Made by a program: the position numbers and the translations under genes. Source: Lachnospiraceae bacterium (GTDB lineage: Bacteria > Bacillota > Clostridia > Lachnospirales > Lachnospiraceae). Taken from it: a stretch of 37,837 nucleotides of DNA. The stretch covers positions 1 to 37,837 of the forward strand of contig JAILOK010000136.1 of NCBI GenBank assembly GCA_024690825.1, read 5' to 3'. Positions 230-14,400 of this stretch are shown here, one piece after another. Within the stretch, counting starts at the first letter, position 1. The number at the start of each line of letters is the position of its first letter. The notes under the pieces were generated by a model. That model was not told the DNA's origin and did not search any database. It was given only the letters and a program-made list of their open reading frames with translations.

Positions 230-3200
230 CTATTTCGAGAAGATCAGCTTCCAGAACTCAGCGACACTTCTTATGCCTATGGTAAAGGTTCCTGTCCTGC
301 TGCCAAAGGCTTTTTTATTATCTCCTATTATGATGATCGTGGCTTTGCCTCTCTCCGTATTGTTCAGATATCCCACAGAATACGCATCCGCAGGCACCGT
401 CACAAGCTCCGAGCCCTTCTTTACCTTCACATCGACCGCAGGCTCAACCGCTTTTCCCGTATACGGCACTTTTTTAAGCAGTTCGTTCGAACTCTGGGTA
501 TATATCTTCGCATCAGTCAGGTTATAGGCATCCTCGGGAAGGGCATTTATCGTGTATTTTCCGGTGGCCGTCTCGTCATCAAACACCTTCTTGCCTGTGA
601 CCTTCACGGTTATCTCGGCGGAAGAGTCAGTCTGGGCCAGCGCGAACTTCTTTCCGGTGATGTTTTCATCTCCGTAGAAGACATTAACCGTATAATTCTT
701 CGGATCGATAAGCACCCCGTCAAGCCTTACGAACACCTGCGGTTTGAGCTTCTCAGGCTTAAGGTAGACGCTGTCGCAGGCCTCTATGACTGCCTTTGAC
801 ATGGGCGCAGGACTGATCTCAAATGTGCCCTTAACGGCTTTCCTTCCCTTGTAGTTTCCTTTGAAGTTTACGGTATACTTTGCATTTTCTCCGGGTTTGG
901 AGTTATTGCTGTATTTTACGGTATAATCCTTACCTTCCGTAAGCTCGGTTTCGTCGGCTTTTATTACAGCAAGCTCAGGCTTTGCGGGACCTGTGAAGCA
1001 ATAGATCTCACCGTCCTCTGCAAGCTCCACGCTCTTTATATCAACTTTGGAGTCGGGCCTGATCTTGAACTTCTTTTTCACCTTTCCATAATAAGAACCT
1101 TTGCCCTTTATCACAGCCTTAGCCGTTCCGGCGTTGATATTTTTGCTGTAGGTCACGGTATAATCAGTGCCGTTTTTCAGCGTATTGCCCTTTCCGTCCT
1201 TTACCACAAGCTCTGTATCGGTAAGGGTCTGGGCCGCGCCGTTAAACACCTTGTATGTTCCCTTCTTTACAGCGGCCGAGATCTTGAATTCCTTCAGCTG
1301 GGCCTTTGTCATCTCCTTTATCGGGATGTCCTTTATCTCGCCGGTAAAGCTGCCCTTGCCTGTGATCGAGACTGTTGCATCCTTTCCTGCCACAGGGTTC
1401 TTCGGATCGGTCGTAAAATCTTTTGAAGTCAGGACATAGTCACCGTAGGTTATCGTGACAGCAGCCTTCTTTCCCTTTTCGGCGATCACGGGATCGATCT
1501 CGATATCATCTGCCGGCTTCCCGTTTCCGTCGCTTATGTCTTTCTGCGTGATGGCAAACTTCAGGGTTTCGCTTCCCTTGAAGTTGCCCTTCAGCGTAAC
1601 TGTTGCCGACGCCTTCTTTGAGCCGGTGACATTTTTATTATTGCTGTAGCTTACCTTATAATCCACATCTTTCTTAAGGATCCTGTCTCCGAAGGTCACA
1701 TACATCGCAGGAGTTATCTTTGATCCCGTATAGATGCAATAGGGCTCTCCTCCGTTGGCATCGCATCTGACTATCTGTCCGTCATCCGGATCATTTGAAA
1801 AGCTTACCGCAAGGACTTCGTCACCGAGCTTTGTCCAGCCGGCATAGAGGGTCATGTTGTCGTTTACCGGATCTGCAAACTCGTATTTCTGTTTGCATTC
1901 CTTATCCTTGTACCAGCCTTCGAACTCAAATCCTGCAGCTAAAGGATTTGCGGGCCTTGTGACCGCTGTACCTTTGACGACGAGTGCATCCTCGGGAGCT
2001 ACCTTTCCATGGCCGTTCAGATAGAAATGTACCATGTAAAGATCGTCTCTTGCCTTATCGGCAATCCTGAATCTGATCTGTCTCTCACCGGTGTATGCAG
2101 CAATGCCCTTGATATATACACAGGCATTTCCGCTTTCGGTGTTGTTGACATATGAAAGGACATAGTCGGTATTCTCGACCAGTGTTTTTCCACCGTCAGT
2201 TACATGGACCGCAGGCTTCTGCTGCTTTCCGTCGTAGGCCACCACATATCTGTCAAGCCATGCCTTCAGTCCGTTTACGTCGATGCTGTTTCCGTCCTTA
2301 TTCTTGCTGCTCTTTCCGTTTAATTCTATGGACTCAACCTTGACGTTCTGCAGCTCGAGATTGCCGCCGTTAAGCTTTATCTCGGCATTTTCTTTGGCAC
2401 CTGTTCCGGTTCCGGTGATCTCCGCATTTCCACCGTTTATACCGGCCATCTTTACGGAAAAGGTCTCGCCCTCCTTTAAGGGGATACTGATGTTTCCTTC
2501 TCCGCTTGCTCCTTTCTCTTTACCCAGACCAAACTCAGCCTGAGGCGACTGGGTCTGAACCTCCATGGCACTTTCGCCGTCCATGGCTTTGAAGGAAAGT
2601 CCGCCGCTGTTACTCTTTATCACTCTGTTTGACTGTGTGGGAGTAAATACTGCCTTTTTGCTGTTTACTGCCTTGGGTCCGATGGCTGTAACCTTCTGCT
2701 CAAATCCGGAATCAACACTCTCGGGATCGATTGAGCCGCTGTTTACATTCACCAGAGGATTTCCTTCAGCATCGGTCACGCTGTAGGAGGGATTGTCTAC
2801 TACCATTGCACGGCATCTTAAGCGGCATCTCAGACGGCATCTTAATCTGCAGCGAAGTCTGCATCTTAAGCGGCATCTCAGGCGGCATCTTAATCTGCAA
2901 CGAAGCCTGCATCTTAAGTTTGCCTGTTTTACTTCTTCGTCACCCGAATTCGGCCAGAGTTCTGCCAGTCTGCTTTCATATTCCTCGGGTTTTTCTTCAA
3001 GAGACGCAAAATGTGATTCGTAATCGTCACCGTATTTATCAGCAAACATCATCCTGCAGCGGAGTCTGCAGCGGAGATTGGTCTGCTTCGTTTCGTTATC
3101 AGAACCTTCGGGATAGAGTGCATTTATCTGTCTTTCAAACTCTGCGGAATTATTGCTCAAAGTCTCGTAAAGTTCTGCGGCCTTTTTGTCCGCAAATGCC

Positions 3201-6200
3201 ATGCGGCAGCGAAGGCGGCAGCGAAGGTTGGCTGATCTGACCTCATCATCACTTCCCGAATATTGGCAGAGCTGATCTACCAGAGCATTGTAACTGACTA
3301 TATCATTTTTATAATCGTCATACTTGCTTTCCGCATACATAAGCCTGCAGCGCAGACGGCAGCGGAGGTTGGTCTCCTTTTTTTCTTTGTCCTCATCACT
3401 GTCTCCCAGACCATCATCAGAATAAAGATCACCGATGGCTCTTTCAAAGTTAGCAGGTGTCATATTCCCGCACCATTCTTCAATCTCATACCCCTGTCTG
3501 AGCATCCGGCATCTTAAACGGCAGCGGAGACGGCACCGGAGATTTGCCTTTTTAATTTCTTCACTTCCGCTGTCGGGCCAGAGTTCAAGAAGCTTATCAT
3601 CCAACTCATTTTCATTTAAGCCGCTGTACTCTTCACTGATCCTCTTTGACAGTTCCTCATAATACATGATCCTGCAGCGCAGGCGGCAGTCTTTGTCCCC
3701 TTCATTCGGCCACCTATTTGTCAAAAGGCTGTTAAATTCGTCAAAGCTTTTGTCCTTATTTTCTGTAAAGAAAGCCACCTCATCATCTGTCACTTCATCG
3801 ATGGTACCGTTTTCATTCAGATGCTGAAGATCCTCATCAAAGATATCAAGTCCGTTCCTGTAGCTTTCACCCTGTTGCTCCTTGTCCCAGTCCCCGGTAA
3901 AGACATAGTCATCCAGATCTGACCATTTTTTATCATCAAGACGAAGCAGATCCCAGAGTCTTTCCGCCCAGGCGTTTGAGTCATACTCTCCTCCGTCCTT
4001 CCAGACAGCAGAGAATACATCGTAAGGAATGTAAGTCAGTACGCAGTCTTTCCCATCACCCGGGTCAGTTCCCCAGTGGATGCTGTCTGTTAAGTCATAA
4101 TGCCAGCCGGTACAGGTACCGTCAGGCTCGGAACGAAGTTCGATATATCTGTCTTCTTCCGGCCAGTTGCTGTCATAAATATGGATGGCAACAGGTCTGG
4201 GTCTTTTTGTTTCATCCTCCAGATCATAACCGTGCATCTCGCTTTCTCTTTCAACCGCGTAGCCCAACACGGCATGGCCTCCCTCGGGGCCGAACATTCC
4301 TATGATCACGGGCTCCGATCTTTCCTGAGAATAGTCTTCCTCTATTGCCTGTACTATCTCTTCAGGAAGCGCATCCAGGGAATAGCAAAACTGTACTCTA
4401 TCGTCATACTGGGATACCTGCATGGCCTCTATGTATTTACGAAGATCCGTTTCTTCCTCCTCATCGTACAGCTGTTCTTTCTTGTCATCCAAGGTATTCC
4501 GGTCGACATCACGCTTAAGATAAAGGTCTACCGGACGAGAGTGTTCTTCACCTCCAAATGCCGTGACCTTCGGTATCGGTCTTTCATTTTGTGATACCGT
4601 GCCGTTATAGTTAAACATACTGCTCGTTGCGGATATGCCGTAGCAGCTTCCACCCCACTCATCATCAAAAAACTTAAAGATGTTGCTTCCGCGCTGTTCT
4701 CCGAAAAGCTCCTGATAGCGCTTTTCGGGTATATGATATTTCCAGTTTTCCTCATATCCAAGACCCTTTGATCCATAGGTATTGATAAAATTATAGGTAT
4801 AATCATCGATACCGTAACCACTCATCGGATAATATTTTGTAGACAAAAAACCAGGCTTCCCGTCAAGACCATCAATCCTGGCATAATCAAAACCATTGTG
4901 TTCCGCGTCATCGATATATTTCGTTCCCTTCATTCCTTTAAGATTAACGCAGCCTTTAAACATATTCTCTGCGCTGTTTACGCTTGCCGGAAAAGAATAA
5001 GACATTCCATCGTAATTCGGAACAACATAAATTTTCCTTAGTTTAGTACATCCGTAAAACATCCTGTTGCAGGATGTAGTAAAAGACAGATTTATTAAGC
5101 TAAAATCAACAACCTCCAGGTTTTCGCAATTTTCAAACATCGAGTCTGTCTCATGAAGAGCGTCATCGTCAGATTCAAAATGCCTAAAAAGCCTGACTCT
5201 TTCAAGAGATTTACAGTTCTTAAACAGATCTTTCACACTTTTGACACCCGGATCTCTGACACCCGGATCTCCCTGGTCTGCGCAGATATCGATCCCACTC
5301 AGATCTGCGTTTTTCAGTGATGTACATCCGCTGAAAAGGCTGTAAAGAGCATCTTTACTTTTGACCTTAATTCCTACTCCCTCATAGCAGTCATCTCTTT
5401 CGAACCTGACAGAGGTGATCTTTTCTTTCATCTGATCATCAAAAAGAGAATTGGCATTGGAATAATAATTGTCATCAATATATGTGCCATGACTTACTCC
5501 GTTACATGTAACAGAATTGGGTACCACCAGATCCGTATCCGTTCCGATATATTCCATGAGATAGACATAAGTACCATTGGCATCTCTTATCATCCAGTTT
5601 CCGTCATCCGTGACCAGGGGTTTTTCTTCTATATCGGAAAAATAACCGCGTGTGCTTCCGTTATATTTATCAAGGACAGCCATTTGTATGCCGACTTTGT
5701 CCTTGTCATATTTATATCCGCTGCCTCCGGACAGCTTTACACATCCCTTGAACATGTCTGTGCCCGCAGCTGTTTCAGGGAAAGCATAACTATTACCGTT
5801 GACATAGATGCCTCTGAGGCTGCTGCAGTCTAAAAACATATACTTGCAGGATTGAATTTCTGAAATACACTCGGCATACAAAGAACTCAGGTCTATCCAT
5901 ACAATAGACGAACAGCCCTTGAACATGCTGTCCAGATTTGTTCCTATATCATAAGGCAATGTTACTGTTTTAAGTGATATACATCCTTCAAACAGACTTT
6001 TTGCATTAATGCGCTCGCCGTATGTAAGATCAACCGTCTCAAGGGATGTCATATCCTTAAACAGTCCATCGTTTATATTATCTTCATAACCAAAATATAA
6101 AGTGTAATCAGGATACTGTTCTATAGATACAGACTTGATCTTTTCCCGTTTTTCCTTATTACCAAAAGTAAAATTACTGCTTAATGCCACACCGTAATTT

Positions 6201-6769
6201 GTATCCTCCGGCGCACCAAAAGCAGATCCGGAAAAATGTACCGGGATAACGACAGATTCTTTGTTTCCAAGATATTCTTTTAACAATATCGGTTCTTCAG
6301 CACCAACATATGCACCAAGCCACTTTTCACCGAATTTATCCGTGATTTCACTCCACACATAGCCATCCGCATCTCCTTCTCCCGTTTTCTCCTCTGTTCC
6401 GTTTTCCGAAACTCCCTCAGGAATTCCGTCTTCCGAGACTTCCTTAGGGATGCCGTCTTCCGATACCTCTCCGGTTTCGGGCGCAGGTTCTTCGGCTGAA
6501 GGCTGTGAAACTTCTTCAGTGGGCGCAGTCTCGGATTCATTTCCGGGTTCCGCCACCTCGTTTACCGGCTCCGTTACTTCATTTACCGGTTCCGTCACCT
6601 CATCTGCCGGCTGTTCAGCTGCCGCAGGCTGCTCTGCCACGGGCTCAGTGCCGTCATCTGCTTCCGATGCAAACACCGCCCCCGAAAACAGCTGCGTAAA
6701 GATCAGGACCAGAGCCAAAAAGCCCGCGATCCTGCGTTTATGTGCTTTCTTATTATCTGTGATCTTCAT
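230..6769 (-). CDS. Giant exported BspA-type LRR protein with papain-like protease domain and LRCR repeats
   Basis: A 2179-residue exported protein. It has a Sec signal peptide (hydrophobic core about 15-33, cleavage near VFA-S), then a Pro/Glu-rich segment with short tandem repeats (about 40-130). Residues about 150-650 hold BspA/DUF285-type leucine-rich repeats (LFxGCxSLKxVxL, MFKGCxxL). A papain-like cysteine protease domain follows: GGSCYG with Cys709, GGHAVLGY with His832 and YDSN (Asp866/Asn868). Residues 1028-1320 contain six clusters of the unit LRCR separated by acidic spacers of 39-46 residues. After a Gly-rich region (about 1370-1480) come an Ig-like module, an InlB/Listeria-Bacteroides B repeat (about 1578-1648, ending TLYAGW) and further Ig-like modules to the end. 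No LPXTG or SLH anchor is visible. RBS AAGGAGG lies 9 bases before ATG. A secreted or surface-associated protease/adhesin is inferred; the role of the LRCR region is unknown. Confidence 0.9.
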   Translation of the reverse strand: MKITDNKKAHKRRIAGFLALVLIFTQLFSGAVFASEADDGTEPVAEQPAAAEQPADEVTEPVNEVTEPVNEVAEPGNESETAPTEEVSQPSAEEPAPETGEVSEDGIPKEVSEDGIPEGVSENGTEEKTGEGDADGYVWSEITDKFGEKWLGAYVGAEEPILLKEYLGNKESVVIPVHFSGSAFGAPEDTNYGVALSSNFTFGNKEKREKIKSVSIEQYPDYTLYFGYEDNINDGLFKDMTSLETVDLTYGERINAKSLFEGCISLKTVTLPYDIGTNLDSMFKGCSSIVWIDLSSLYAECISEIQSCKYMFLDCSSLRGIYVNGNSYAFPETAAGTDMFKGCVKLSGGSGYKYDKDKVGIQMAVLDKYNGSTRGYFSDIEEKPLVTDDGNWMIRDANGTYVYLMEYIGTDTDLVVPNSVTCNGVSHGTYIDDNYYSNANSLFDDQMKEKITSVRFERDDCYEGVGIKVKSKDALYSLFSGCTSLKNADLSGIDICADQGDPGVRDPGVKSVKDLFKNCKSLERVRLFRHFESDDDALHETDSMFENCENLEVVDFSLINLSFTTSCNRMFYGCTKLRKIYVVPNYDGMSYSFPASVNSAENMFKGCVNLKGMKGTKYIDDAEHNGFDYARIDGLDGKPGFLSTKYYPMSGYGIDDYTYNFINTYGSKGLGYEENWKYHIPEKRYQELFGEQRGSNIFKFFDDEWGGSCYGISATSSMFNYNGTVSQNERPIPKVTAFGGEEHSRPVDLYLKRDVDRNTLDDKKEQLYDEEEETDLRKYIEAMQVSQYDDRVQFCYSLDALPEEIVQAIEEDYSQERSEPVIIGMFGPEGGHAVLGYAVERESEMHGYDLEDETKRPRPVAIHIYDSNWPEEDRYIELRSEPDGTCTGWHYDLTDSIHWGTDPGDGKDCVLTYIPYDVFSAVWKDGGEYDSNAWAERLWDLLRLDDKKWSDLDDYVFTGDWDKEQQGESYRNGLDIFDEDLQHLNENGTIDEVTDDEVAFFTENKDKSFDEFNSLLTNRWPNEGDKDCRLRCRIMYYEELSKRISEEYSGLNENELDDKLLELWPDSGSEEIKKANLRCRLRCRLRCRMLRQGYEIEEWCGNMTPANFERAIGDLYSDDGLGDSDEDKEKKETNLRCRLRCRLMYAESKYDDYKNDIVSYNALVDQLCQYSGSDDEVRSANLRCRLRCRMAFADKKAAELYETLSNNSAEFERQINALYPEGSDNETKQTNLRCRLRCRMMFADKYGDDYESHFASLEEKPEEYESRLAELWPNSGDEEVKQANLRCRLRCRLRCRLRCRLRCRLRCRLRCRLRCRLRCRAMVVDNPSYSVTDAEGNPLVNVNSGSIDPESVDSGFEQKVTAIGPKAVNSKKAVFTPTQSNRVIKSNSGGLSFKAMDGESAMEVQTQSPQAEFGLGKEKGASGEGNISIPLKEGETFSVKMAGINGGNAEITGTGTGAKENAEIKLNGGNLELQNVKVESIELNGKSSKNKDGNSIDVNGLKAWLDRYVVAYDGKQQKPAVHVTDGGKTLVENTDYVLSYVNNTESGNACVYIKGIAAYTGERQIRFRIADKARDDLYMVHFYLNGHGKVAPEDALVVKGTAVTRPANPLAAGFEFEGWYKDKECKQKYEFADPVNDNMTLYAGWTKLGDEVLAVSFSNDPDDGQIVRCDANGGEPYCIYTGSKITPAMYVTFGDRILKKDVDYKVSYSNNKNVTGSKKASATVTLKGNFKGSETLKFAITQKDISDGNGKPADDIEIDPVIAEKGKKAAVTITYGDYVLTSKDFTTDPKNPVAGKDATVSITGKGSFTGEIKDIPIKEMTKAQLKEFKISAAVKKGTYKVFNGAAQTLTDTELVVKDGKGNTLKNGTDYTVTYSKNINAGTAKAVIKGKGSYYGKVKKKFKIRPDSKVDIKSVELAEDGEIYCFTGPAKPELAVIKADETELTEGKDYTVKYSNNSKPGENAKYTVNFKGNYKGRKAVKGTFEISPAPMSKAVIEACDSVYLKPEKLKPQVFVRLDGVLIDPKNYTVNVFYGDENITGKKFALAQTDSSAEITVKVTGKKVFDDETATGKYTINALPEDAYNLTDAKIYTQSSNELLKKVPYTGKAVEPAVDVKVKKGSELVTVPADAYSVGYLNNTERGKATIIIIGDNKKAFGSRTGTFTIGIRSVAEFWKLIFSK
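2810..2917 (-). repeat. Nine-unit LRCR array with 48-bp higher-order duplication
   Basis: Nine tandem 12-bp units encode residues 1285-1320. Units 1-4 and 5-8 (read on the plus strand from 2811) line up as two 48-bp blocks with the same order of unit variants and only a few differences. A ninth unit repeats the first variant of the block. This larger periodicity indicates recent expansion by slippage or unequal recombination, unlike the five older two- or three-unit clusters. Confidence 0.85.
2810..3688 (-). repeat. Six in-frame clusters of a 12-bp repeat coding for LRCR, with acidic spacers
   Basis: Clusters encode CRLRCR (3671-3688), three units (3506-3541), two units (3344-3367), two (3203-3226), two (3053-3076) and nine (2810-2917). 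The spacers share a pattern: Met with hydrophobic/aromatic residues, a predicted helix, LYP/LWP, an acidic stretch, then Asn directly before each LRCR run. Codons for the same residue differ freely between clusters (Arg as CGC, AGA, AGG, CGT, CGG; Leu as CTC, CTT, CTG, TTA). The peptide pattern has thus been kept while the DNA diverged. Confidence 0.9.
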
Positions 6770-6925: not shown

Positions 6926-7264
6926 TCAATCATCTTCTTCATTGCTCTCTGTCATGTGAATTCCAAAAAGGACATATAAAAAATCCCGTCTCTGATCAAT
7001 GATCCTGATTATTTTGATTATATCTCCCTCTATTCTGTAAAAAGCGTAGTTCTTATTTGTATATATGCACTTATAGTCAGTTACTATCCCAAATCTTTCA
7101 AAAAGCCTGATGTCTGTTTCGGGATATTTCTTTAATCTCTTCAGATCCCTGAATATGGCTTTCAGAATCTTCTTTTCTGTTTCAACACCAAATTCTTCAT
7201 CCAGGTGTTCTTTGAGTTCCTCCAAATCATTGTACGCTTCGGGTGTTATATCCACCCTCTTCAT
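6926..7264 (-). CDS. Type II toxin, ParE/RelE superfamily
   Basis: A 112-residue basic protein of the RelE/ParE fold. It opens with VDITPEAYNDLEELKEHL, has the central helix with KRLKKYP, then strands with YKCIYTNKNYAFYRIEGD and a final IKIIRIIDQRRD, which is the usual ParE/RelE layout and length. It would act either as a ribosome-dependent mRNA interferase or as a gyrase poison; the sequence alone does not decide. Its ATG overlaps the antitoxin stop codon by four bases (ATGA), so the pair is translationally coupled. The C-terminal tail is somewhat longer than usual (LYVLFGIHMTESNEEDD). It is bounded downstream by a REP-like palindrome. Confidence 0.88.
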   Translation of the reverse strand: MKRVDITPEAYNDLEELKEHLDEEFGVETEKKILKAIFRDLKRLKKYPETDIRLFERFGIVTDYKCIYTNKNYAFYRIEGDIIKIIRIIDQRRDFLYVLFGIHMTESNEEDD

Positions 7265-7565: not shown

Positions 7566-7603
7566 AAAAAGTTGTCAGAAGAACCGTCCCCCTGTCATCT
7601 TTT
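7566..7603. repeat. REP-like palindromic element, single unit
   Basis: On the minus strand the unit begins AAAAGATGACAG, has the centre GGGGGACGGTTCTT and ends CTGACAACTTTTT. The outer arms pair imperfectly. It starts right at the ATPase stop codon (TGA at 7603-7605), so it may serve as that gene's terminator, and it ends close to the toxin-antitoxin promoter. It is the same family as the copies at 6889, 9039 and 15018. Confidence 0.75.
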
Positions 7604-8910
7604 CATATGAACGCTGCCATATACAACGGCAGTGTGATAATGCCGGCGTCATCTGTTCCGATATTGCCGTCGATAAATTTGTACCCGTAAGTGATGTCTC
7701 TTTTATTTTGGATCAGATATCTGAGTGAATTTGCTCTTGAATTCCCGCTCTTTACTTCTATCGGCACCACCTGACCGTCCTTTTGTATGATCAGATCTAT
7801 CTCCTTTTTCGTTGTCTCGTTTTTATAGAAATACAGCTTATATCCCTTTTTATAAAGCGCATCTGCGACGGCACATTCATACAGTCCGCCCTTTGTATTT
7901 CCCGACAAAGTATTTTCCACTATGTGCTGTTTTATGAAAAAATCCTTCATCGCGATCAGAAGTGATAGATCCGTCGTATAAGCCCTGAAGAAGTCATCTC
8001 TTGCATAATCATCGAGGTCATATCCGACATCCGTCACAACCCTGCAAAGATGCACTATGTCTGCACGAAGCAGCCATTCAATGCTGGAATAGTATTTCTG
8101 GGCTCTCGCGCCGGATTCGATCTCTTTGTACTGAAACTTGTGATTTTCCTTATCCAGAAGCTGCTTTGCAAGCGTCAGATAACACTTTTCCGCCTTGACC
8201 TTTTCCTCTGCCGTAGCATAATGCGCAATGTCGTACTGATACCCTTGAAGGATGCTTCTCTGGACAGTATCCACCTCGCGGAAGTCCTTCGTATCCGCAT
8301 ATTTCTGTACAGCCTCAGGCATCCCTCCGATCGCGATATACTTCCTGTAATATCCCATCATCTGAGCATTGACTGCTTCCGGAATGACACTTTTATTATT
8401 CAGATGATCAAGGAGAGATCCGATCATGTCATCCGATATTCCAAGGCCCCACAGAAATTCCTCAAAATCCAGTCCGTACATATCGATATAATCAATATAT
8501 CCCACAGGGTAAGAAGAAGCGCGTTTATAATCAATGCCCAAAAGAGACCCGGATGCCATGACAACATATCTGTTGTCGAGTGCCCAGAACTTGAGAGATG
8601 TTACAGCCTCCTCACATTCCTGTATCTCGTCAAGAAAGATCATGGTCCTTCCCGGAACGATCTTTTTTTCCGGGTAGCGAAAGCGCATGGCCATGACCAT
8701 ATCATCTACCGTCAGGTCACCGGAAAAGATCTCAGATGCAGAAGGAGTCTGCCTGAAATTGATCTCCAGCAGTTCCTCAAAATTTTCCCTTGCAAACTGC
8801 TCTATTATAAAAGTCTTTCCGGTCTGTCTGGCACCACGGACGATCAGACACTTTTTTTCTTTTGTTTCCATCCAGCTTTTCAGCTGCACCGTTACCTTTC
8901 TTTTCAGCAT
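7603..8910 (-). CDS. AAA_14 / DUF4143 family ATPase
   Basis: A 435-residue protein with an N-terminal P-loop ATPase domain: Walker A GARQTGKT (Lys32), Walker B MIFLDEIQ near residue 93, and a sensor-like VVMASGSLLG. The C-terminal part matches DUF4143, with KKEIDLII and VPIEVKSG, a PD-(D/E)XK nuclease-like pattern (Asp, Glu-x-Lys). These solitary ATPases are common and often multicopy in anaerobes; their function is unknown. GAGG lies 8 bases before the ATG. The gene has its own promoter with three spaced repeats and is enclosed by REP-like palindromes on both sides, which suggests an acquired unit. No partner gene is attached. Confidence 0.88.
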   Translation of the reverse strand: MLKRKVTVQLKSWMETKEKKCLIVRGARQTGKTFIIEQFARENFEELLEINFRQTPSASEIFSGDLTVDDMVMAMRFRYPEKKIVPGRTMIFLDEIQECEEAVTSLKFWALDNRYVVMASGSLLGIDYKRASSYPVGYIDYIDMYGLDFEEFLWGLGISDDMIGSLLDHLNNKSVIPEAVNAQMMGYYRKYIAIGGMPEAVQKYADTKDFREVDTVQRSILQGYQYDIAHYATAEEKVKAEKCYLTLAKQLLDKENHKFQYKEIESGARAQKYYSSIEWLLRADIVHLCRVVTDVGYDLDDYARDDFFRAYTTDLSLLIAMKDFFIKQHIVENTLSGNTKGGLYECAVADALYKKGYKLYFYKNETTKKEIDLIIQKDGQVVPIEVKSGNSRANSLRYLIQNKRDITYGYKFIDGNIGTDDAGIITLPLYMAAFI

Positions 8911-11420: not shown

Positions 11421-14400
11421 TATTTGGCCTCCTCCAGAATCTTTTTTATATCATCAGCTGTCTTATTAAAAAGTCCCAACAGTTCATCATGTTCCGCGTG
11501 AATGAAATCCTCGTCGTTATTATCCGCAGCCGCCTCCAGAGCCGCAAACCTCTCGGACAAAGCAACTGCTCCTATGGTCTTTGATGTACTCTTTACCGAA
11601 TGTACATAGACCCTGTACTCCTGCCAGTCATATCCTTCAAAGTCTGACTGCAGAGACTTTATGACATTATCCCTGCTGTCCACATATTCCTGAAGGACCA
11701 TACGATAAAGTTCCTTATCGCCGTGGCAGTAGCCGATGCCTGCCTCCATGTCTATGCCGGCTTCTTTCAAAGCCGCGGCCGTTTTATCCGGCGGCTCGTT
11801 CTTATTATCGGAAACCTGCTCCCCATCATTTGACCTGTCGATGATCTTTTCCTTTGGCAGATAGGCAAGAAGCATGCTTTCAAGCGCATCTCCCTCCACG
11901 GGCTTTGTCAGATAATCGGTAAAGCCCTGGGCCATATATCTTTCCTTCGCGCCCCTTATGGCATCCGCCGTCAGGCAGATCACGGGGTTTTCGGCATTCT
12001 TTGCACTGTCGAGCTCACGGATCTTTTTAAGCGTCTCGGTACCGTCCATGCCCGGCATACGCTGGTCCATGAGTATCAGATCATAGGCGTTCTCATCCGC
12101 AAGTTTCAGCGCTTCCGCACCTGAGGAGGCGGTATCGATCTTTACAGCCGTCCTCTTTAAGAGTTTTTCGACCACCATGATGTTCATCTTCGTATCGTCG
12201 GTAACCAGAATATAAGCGTCAGGCGCATAGAGCCTGCCTCTGTTTTTATTATGCTCCGAAGCGGATGAAGCTGTCATGTCCACTTCGCCCACAGGCGAAT
12301 AATCCCTTATCTCCTGCCATATTTCAAAGGAGAAGACAGAGCCTTCGCCGTAAATGCTTTCTACCTTCAGAGTACTGTCCATGAGGGAAAGAAGTTTTGT
12401 CACGATCGACATGCCAAGCCCGGTGCCCTCGATGTTGCGGTTCTTCACCTGATCGAGCCTTTCAAAGGATTCAAAGAGTTTTGACATATCCTCTTTGCGT
12501 ATGCCGATGCCCGTATCACGCACCTCCACGCTCATAAGAACCGCGCTCGTCGTTCTCTCCTCCTGCTTAACGGTAAGAGTCACCGAGCCTTCACGGGTGT
12601 ACTTTACCGCGTTGGTCAGAAGGTTCATGATGACCTGGTTGATCCTCGTATCGTCGCCGAAAAGCTTTGAAGGAAGCTCCGGATCCACATTTACATTTAC
12701 CTCAAGATCCTTGCTGCGGGCCCTTTCGATGATGGAATTGTAAAGGTAGGAAATACTGGATGAAAGGCTGTAGGTTACGGGCACTATCTCCATCTTGCCG
12801 TCCTCGATCTTTGAAAAATCAAGGATGCTGTTTATCAGCTGAAGGAGATTTTTGCCTGAGGTCTCAATATTGCCCGAGTATTCGAGTATGTCCTTATCCT
12901 CCGATTCACGCAGGATCATCTCGTTCATACCGAGGATCGCGTTTATCGGCGTACGGATCTCGTGGGACATGTCCGCAAGGAAGCTGCTCTTGGCCTTATT
13001 GGCTTCATCAGCCGCCTGCTTTTCAAGCTTGAGCGCCCTGGCCTCGTACTCCTGCCTGTTCCTGCTGATGCGCATTTCCTCCATCCTGCGGCCGTAGAAC
13101 TGCTCGTTCCTGTAGCCGAGATAATAAAAGAAGGATATCAGCACAAAGATCACAAAGGATACCGCTATGCTCAATGCCAGCTGCAGATGCACTTCCTCCA
13201 GAAGCTCGCCGTCCCTGACCAGGATCAGCGCATACCACTGATCCATGACGGTCTTTGCAAATACGGTATAGGGTTCACCGTTCATTACCGTCCTGATGGT
13301 GCCGTTTTTCGTGCGCACAAGGTTTTCAAAGATCTCGCCGGAATATTCTTTCCTGAAATCCTTTCCGACGCTATCCCTGTCCATGTGGGCTATGATGGTG
13401 CCGTCTTCGTTTATCACCATGGTCGTGCCCATGCCGTTTATGGAGGTTTCCTCCACGACATCCTGGATATAGTTAACTATGACGTCTATGGCCACGACAT
13501 TGGAACTGTCATACTGCTCTTTATCACCGTAATCAGAGAGCTTGCGGCATACAGTAATGACTACCTCACCCGTCTGGGCATCCACATAGGGCGGCACCAT
13601 GACGGCATCCCCGCCGCCTCTGACTGCCAGATTATACCAGCTGCGCTTTTTCGGATCGTAGCCATCGGGCGGGACCCATTCAAGGCCGTCTAAATATTCG
13701 CCTCTTATCAGTCCGTAGAGCCCGGTAAGGTTTTCGTCGAGAAGTCTTTTGTAGTTTTCCGTCTGGTCAATGAGGAAGGTGAGAATCTTTTCCTGATCCT
13801 CATCTCTTTTGAGCATGGTATCCACGGTATCGGCAGTGACCATGAGGGCCGAGGCCGTAGCGGACAGATAGTTTTCGATCTCGGTTGCGACAAGCCTTGC
13901 CGAATTCACCCCCATCTCATATCTTTCATCAACCGACACTTTGTAAAAGAGTCTTGAAGTATAGATCACCGAAAAGACCATCAGCACCAGACACAAAAGG
14001 ATCGTCGCTATGAAGGTGATCCTGCCGTCCTGCGAATCGAGTTCCTCATCCTTCTGATGAACGCTGCGGTATCTGACAGTTATGACGAATATTATGAGAC
14101 ATATGAGTATCACCAGAACGACCGAAATGAAAAAGAGCGCAACCGCGATCTGAGCGAAGTCCCCCTCTTCCTGCGCAGAAAGGCTTGCCTTCATACGGGA
14201 AGCTATCTGGATCCCCACGATACATCCGCCAAAGATGATAAGCGATGTGGCAACCTGCAGAAGCATCCTGAATCTCATGCCGGACACATTTGTCTCGTTC
14301 AGTGAAACACCCTGCGCTTCGTAATTCTTTTTGATCGAAAGCTCAAAAAAGACCATGCTTAAGTAGCAGGCAAATGCACACGGATAGTAGGGATCCTTCC

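Follow-up and report, generated by a model that had tools for sequence, protein, structure and literature searches.

A lineage-specific LRCR repeat module with a matching acidic charge in an apparently secreted BspA-type leucine-rich-repeat protein of Lachnospiraceae

The LRCR region and its host protein

Contig JAILOK010000136.1 of a Lachnospiraceae bacterium (assembly GCA_024690825.1), analysed over its full 37,837 nucleotides and referred to here as the window, carries on its minus strand an open reading frame (ORF) of 2179 amino acids (positions 230 to 6769) in which the tetrapeptide Leu-Arg-Cys-Arg (LRCR) recurs in separate clusters. The N terminus, judged by eye, bears an apparent signal peptide, and the protein is thus apparently secreted. 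A BspA-type leucine-rich-repeat (LRR) region follows at about residues 231–644 (4838 to 6079, minus strand, as are all features of the protein below), where LRR_5 was matched with an E value of 1.3e-11 and 44.9 bits, against a cut-off of 27.7, together with phrog_29123. Next come a papain-like peptidase domain (residues 660–941; 3947 to 4792) with the motifs WGGSC, GGHA and YDSN, identified from alignments A2 and A4, and an acidic linker (3692 to 3946) that precedes the first cluster. Beyond the last cluster lie a beta-domain (2120 to 2809) that starts with AMVVDN, is common to the relatives in alignment A3 and has strands in the predicted model, and a Listeria–Bacteroides repeat domain (residues 1578–1643; 1841 to 2038; PF09479, E 3.1e-14). 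The LRCR region is placed between the peptidase domain and the beta-domain.

Reading the residues confirmed the six clusters and 20 Cys that an earlier note, made from the DNA sequence alone, had described; 19 units are complete, and the whole lies at window positions 2810 to 3691. Cluster 1 (residues 1027–1033, each residue range including one preceding residue; 3671 to 3688) reads CRLRCR, one full unit plus CR, or DCRLRCR with the Asp before it. It is followed by a spacer of 43 residues (3542 to 3670), acidic like the four others, and by cluster 2, (LRCR)3 (residues 1076–1088; 3506 to 3541). Clusters 3, 4 and 5 are each (LRCR)2 (residues 1134–1142, 1181–1189 and 1231–1239; 3344 to 3367, 3203 to 3226 and 3053 to 3076) and are preceded by spacers of 46 (3368 to 3505), 39 (3227 to 3343) and 42 residues (3077 to 3202), respectively. 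A fifth spacer, of 45 residues (2918 to 3052), leads to cluster 6, a long array of nine units, (LRCR)9 (residues 1284–1320; 2810 to 2917). The spacer lengths agree with the 39–46 residues given earlier. The statement that Asn precedes every cluster holds for five of the six; cluster 1 lacks the first Leu-Arg and is preceded by Asp.

In 5,000 shuffles of the window protein, LRCR occurred on average 0.006 times and at most once, versus 19 observed. Tandem structure at the DNA level, with periods of 24 and 48 bp, is confined to the long array. No family of Pfam-A (E ≤ 1), NCBIfam (E ≤ 1) or PHROGs (E ≤ 0.1) was found over residues 1000–1330, in keeping with the earlier view that no named domain covers the region. 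A sequence search of the PDB gave no meaningful match, PADLOC gave none for the protein of ORF 230–6769, and literature searches, part of them aimed at LRCR-type repeats, returned no paper that we recognized as being about them.

The neighbouring peptidase shows the Cys, His and Asn/Asp motifs of papain-like peptidases in order (alignments A2 and A4), and C50, H173, D207 and N209 are invariant among the 19 rows of alignment A4. Among the 25 array-bearing proteins described below, the Cys motif is present in 24, the remaining one being truncated where its contig stops, and all 25 have GGHA. From this conservation the peptidase beside the array is likely to be active, and the module would ride on it. 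The likeness to C10/SpeB, C39, C70 and IdeS peptidases consists of the ordered motifs together with weak Pfam and fold matches, the Pfam matches being to other members only and none to the window protein; it differs in that no family match is confident and in that the array is an addition. Likewise, the N-terminal region resembles BspA-type LRR surface proteins, and several annotated plasmid matches are named BspA family. The plasmid search returned 17 records at <60% identity, and among the matches listed (10 of the 17) all lie within the LRR part and end by residue 681, short of the peptidase and the array. The only other NCBIfam name listed, TIGR02167 (DUF285), of the PARCEL repeats of surface proteins (PMC2996958), also falls in the LRR part, scoring 10.8 bits where the cut-off is 30, and does not involve the LRCR region.

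Arrays at one position in related proteins

The window's own genome has another such gene on contig C15, with clusters of 2, 3, 2, 2, 2 and 9 units, and the six-cluster layout recurs in other genomes. Because it is found in a paralogue and in different assemblies, an assembly artefact, the doubt that the earlier note had attached to its own observation, is ruled out. The cluster region was matched in 5 of 48 genomes of the genus, the window's own included, and in 2 of 397 genomes of a family sample, namely the window's own and one from another genus (G099). A scan of genome contigs returned 11 loci, nine of them of the window-protein family and two proteobacterial, of which one (L040) is Arg-rich by composition only and the other (L042) is without an RCR run; the named records matched are Lachnospiraceae metagenome-assembled genomes, with rumen in two titles. 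Viral contigs gave no match to the cluster region and one distant peptidase relative without an array, and phages gave no match to the peptidase stretch.

The peptidase domain itself was matched in 10 of the 48 genus genomes, including one weak match (G004) that was not inspected. More distant peptidase relatives pass from the peptidase to the beta-domain without an array in the 21 loci inspected, as read in the longest frame, with short flanks and with the region cut in some. The array thus looks like an insertion or expansion within one lineage. An array profile (A7, seven rows) matched 11 genus genomes, nine of which carry arrays of the window-protein family; on reading, the matches in G028 (a 46-residue frame) and G036 (a 63-residue frame with three stops) showed no such array. 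The same profile matched 7 of the 397 family-sample genomes. Two of these, the window's own genome (G000) and G099, belong to the window-protein family, and the five others, in frames of 42–118 residues, are taken as chance or other coding repeats: L167 and L170 hold other repeats, L168 and L169 hold none, and the fifth (L166, in G415) has a run of FRLQ repeats near base 1506 in a 62-residue frame. A pattern of paired RCR matched 7 of 10 chosen genomes, and all 27 of its matches in G000 fall inside the two array genes. On these sequences, the module is lineage-specific and resides in an apparently secreted BspA-type LRR protein.

The array-protein set comprises 25 proteins, two of them nearly identical, in which 377 units were read. 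Sixteen are xRCR proteins, four of which use MRCR, and nine carry FRLK, FRVR or FRLR units, with the arrays at the same place; a tenth protein of the latter type (L146) was left out of the counts. The main array has 6–11 units in the xRCR proteins, and five extra short clusters are present in the window's subfamily. Among the ten six-cluster proteins the long array has nine units in seven and 6, 8 and 10 in the others. In the nine FRLK, FRVR or FRLR proteins the main array has at least 8 units and ends in S, A, T, N, Q or E followed by M; V-D or V-E comes next in the majority, and the majority also have one or two further copies of the unit slightly downstream. Hydrophobic and basic residues alternate in both kinds of unit, and in 9 of the 25 proteins Val or Leu stands where the others have Cys. 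Read from the letters, the shared design is hydrophobic-Arg-hydrophobic-Arg/Lys, with Cys as one choice at the third place, and Cys is therefore dispensable among these relatives. A C-terminal tail of the ILxLIF kind, for example EILKLIFSK, is common to the window protein (230 to 260) and to L021, L023–L025 and L027.

Constancy of the unit and switches of its letters

Short repeats are normally kept alike through copying of their DNA. The 16 xRCR proteins contain 174 LRCR and 82 MRCR units, with no protein mixing the two and no near-miss unit. Among the ten six-cluster proteins, units are identical in all 21 pairs of the same type, at flank identities of 38–90%, and unit identity in the 24 mixed-type pairs is 74–75%, the value that a difference in the first letter alone would give. 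The codons, in contrast to these constant residues, vary widely between clusters, as noted earlier. The nucleotide identity of Arg-Cys-Arg is 0.747 when clusters within a protein are compared, 0.744 for proteins within a genome and 0.725 across genomes, and it reaches 0.784 between neighbouring units in a cluster. Since these identities are nearly equal within and between genomes, the DNA is hardly homogenized beyond local slippage; since the residues stay constant while the codons vary freely, selection acts on the peptide, as the earlier note had proposed. The array copies, alike as peptide despite codon drift, show selection for sameness with unusual clarity.

On a tree built from the flanking domains, with the array columns excluded, the MRCR label needs three changes, and the starred branches force three. 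The Leu/Met letter has therefore changed at least three times, each time in all 18–21 units of a protein, so that about 20 separated copies changed the same letter jointly several times. In the flanks, Leu of LRCR proteins stands opposite Met in 37 of 860 comparisons, the pairs not being independent. The letters also tend to follow the genome: the array proteins are LRCR in 7 of 7 cases in G016, which lie on several branches, and MRCR in 3 of 3 in G027, which lie on two; G000 and G045 each have two of two LRCR, and G041 two of two FRLR. In G010, whose estimated contamination is 5%, four array proteins are FRVR and one is FRLK, and this last one is almost the same as the FRLK protein of G008. 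In 97 of 500 label shuffles, MRCR was clustered on the tree at least as strongly as observed.

Charge match, predicted fold and possible roles

The earlier note had pointed to acidic neighbours of the basic repeats, and counting gave this a quantitative form. In 24 proteins (the near-duplicate L102 excluded), charge was counted from the peptidase end, placed some residues further on in L025 and L028, to the point where the last array stops. It amounts to +16 to +48 for the array and −21 to −68 for the other residues, with a Pearson r of −0.95 and a Spearman coefficient of −0.88 between the two; because the sequences are related and charge grows with linker length, the p-values are not to be taken at face value. 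A helpful case is L101, which has 24 units (variants counted), hardly any spacers and an acidic linker of its own of 296 residues; repeats resembling WTDEDEELY set this FRLK linker apart from the spacers found in LRCR proteins. The charge match supplies a number that can be tested.

Residues 660–1560 of the window protein were modelled with AlphaFold2 from 23 alignment rows, giving a mean predicted local distance difference test score (pLDDT) of 74.5 and a predicted template modelling score of 0.40. Long helices of 24–33 residues alternate in the model with helices of 11 residues, and pLDDT is 81–92 across model residues 341–560, save one block at 73. Each of the six clusters is part of a long helix; the blocks of the five short ones have pLDDT 80–90 and the long array is modelled with low confidence. 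The earlier idea that each run would form a strand is therefore doubtful.

These observations are most consistent, tentatively and with somewhat less than even weight, with an acid–base helical module in which acidic helices hold the cationic repeats, for multivalent binding or as a scaffold. Acidic linker sequence, ahead of the first cluster and in the spacers, would offset the charge of the basic repeats in cis, and, given this offset, the acidic and basic parts would most likely pack on each other. The charge-clamped, multivalent segment might then hold the peptidase and LRR head on an anionic partner, candidates being a cell-surface polymer, a substrate or another copy of the protein.

Several points weigh against this reading. 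No partner is known for the module, and fold searches gave no confident match. Within the nine-unit array pLDDT drops from 66 to 37, so that the model does not fix the fold of the long array, and the array of L044 is drawn as helix at pLDDT of about 36–40, too low to carry weight; alternation of this kind in a long array is equally compatible with a strand. The charge correlation carries the caveat of relatedness given above, the FRLK protein L101/L102 holds the variant units YRIK and YRMR, and packing alone leaves unexplained why Leu and Met never mix.

Rather unlikely, on the same model, is a purely structural role as an alpha-alpha solenoid spacer, in which a Leu stripe and an opposite Cys (or Val, Leu) stripe would let helices pack stripe on stripe. 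Uniform units would follow from a repeated interface, and the charge would serve only solubility. The alternation of long and 11-residue helices, with every cluster in a long one, speaks for it, the stripe geometry being a matter of reasoning only. However, relatives with a single array are without helical spacers between clusters, a repeat of four residues gradually shifts around a straight helix, and single FRVR, FRLR or FRLK units lie in short segments close to Pro or Gly. Moreover, a core should tolerate conservative mixing of Leu and Met.

Another notion, which we regard as improbable, is that the tetrapeptide acts as a genome-wide identity tag for a trans-acting partner or for co-assembling paralogues, with all copies in all paralogues switching together between LRCR and MRCR without homogenization of the DNA. 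A shade less probable still is the related proposal that such a partner, or such paralogues, recognize the tetrapeptide as a motif, so that all copies in a cell need the same letters. The proposal draws on the five genomes with uniform letters, on the three forced MRCR changes and on the rarity of Leu facing Met in the flanks. Against it stand the mixture of FRVR and FRLK in G010, the unremarkable clustering of MRCR in the label shuffles, the small number of genomes and the fact that no partner was found.

An equally small chance is given to a masked cationic peptide, one of the roles raised in the earlier note, in which the acidic linker would neutralize a membrane-active repeat and proteolysis would free it. 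The unit is shaped like designed peptides of the type [X1Z1X2Z2]n, for example [IRVK]3 and [FRFK]2, tetrapeptide repeats of alternating hydrophobic and basic residues that are described as forming a cationic beta-strand (PMC8757834); the window array differs in being natural, lying within a large protein beside acidic neighbours and having short clusters predicted to be helical. The peptidase domain adjoins the array, and the charge counts give an acidic segment balancing a cationic one, as in the precursors of alpha-defensins, whose anionic prosegment has been proposed to hold the cationic peptide inactive (PMC3308943). The likeness is by description only, and the window protein has repeats and not a three-disulfide fold. 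Nevertheless, no conserved immunity or export gene was seen beside the array genes inspected, by eye at a few loci; the clusters are dispersed through the predicted fold; Arg-specific proteases would cut inside the Arg-rich repeats, the cleavage site being putative; and membrane activity does not require strict uniformity of Leu or Met. Should the repeats turn out to bind, or to be released, as cationic peptides, the designed antimicrobials would have a natural counterpart in them.

A Cys-based metal store or disulfide scaffold, also suggested earlier as a role, is very improbable. The 20 Cys have the four-residue spacing of one helix face, and many Cys in helices recall Csp1 and Csp3, copper storage proteins that bind Cu(I) through Cys in the core of a four-helix bundle (PMC7558416); relatives of the window protein, in contrast, have at this position arrays of FRLK, FRVR or FRLR, which are free of Cys. 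Almost no weight is left for a DNA-level repeat without peptide function, through 12-bp slippage or gene conversion, or for an artefact: the local 48-bp repeat in the long array and the slightly greater likeness of neighbouring units fit it, but concerted evolution of the DNA is rejected on the freely differing codons with constant residues, and the shared layout in other genomes and the nine-unit long array in most six-cluster proteins stand against both.

Several neighbouring genes were observed. Contig C54 of G016 (L022, L023 and L104) carries five array genes, four of them adjacent on one strand. On contig C95 of the window's own genome, L110 (5237 to 7390, minus strand) is a relative whose listed frame covers the C-terminal half only, without peptidase or array; its neighbour is an HD-domain-like protein, a near copy of which abuts an array gene in G016 (L023, 8515 to 10431). 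Beside an MRCR gene, L028 has an ORF of 99 residues (12365 to 12661, plus strand) without a Pfam match and with an AEVAGG stretch, which we take to resemble a double-Gly leader. In the window itself, a 112-residue ORF at 6926 to 7264 (minus strand) matches the ParE toxin family (Pfam E 1.7e-8), and an AAA_14 and DUF4143 protein at 7603 to 8910 (minus strand) matches the PADLOC candidate defence model PDC-S01 at E 4e-136.

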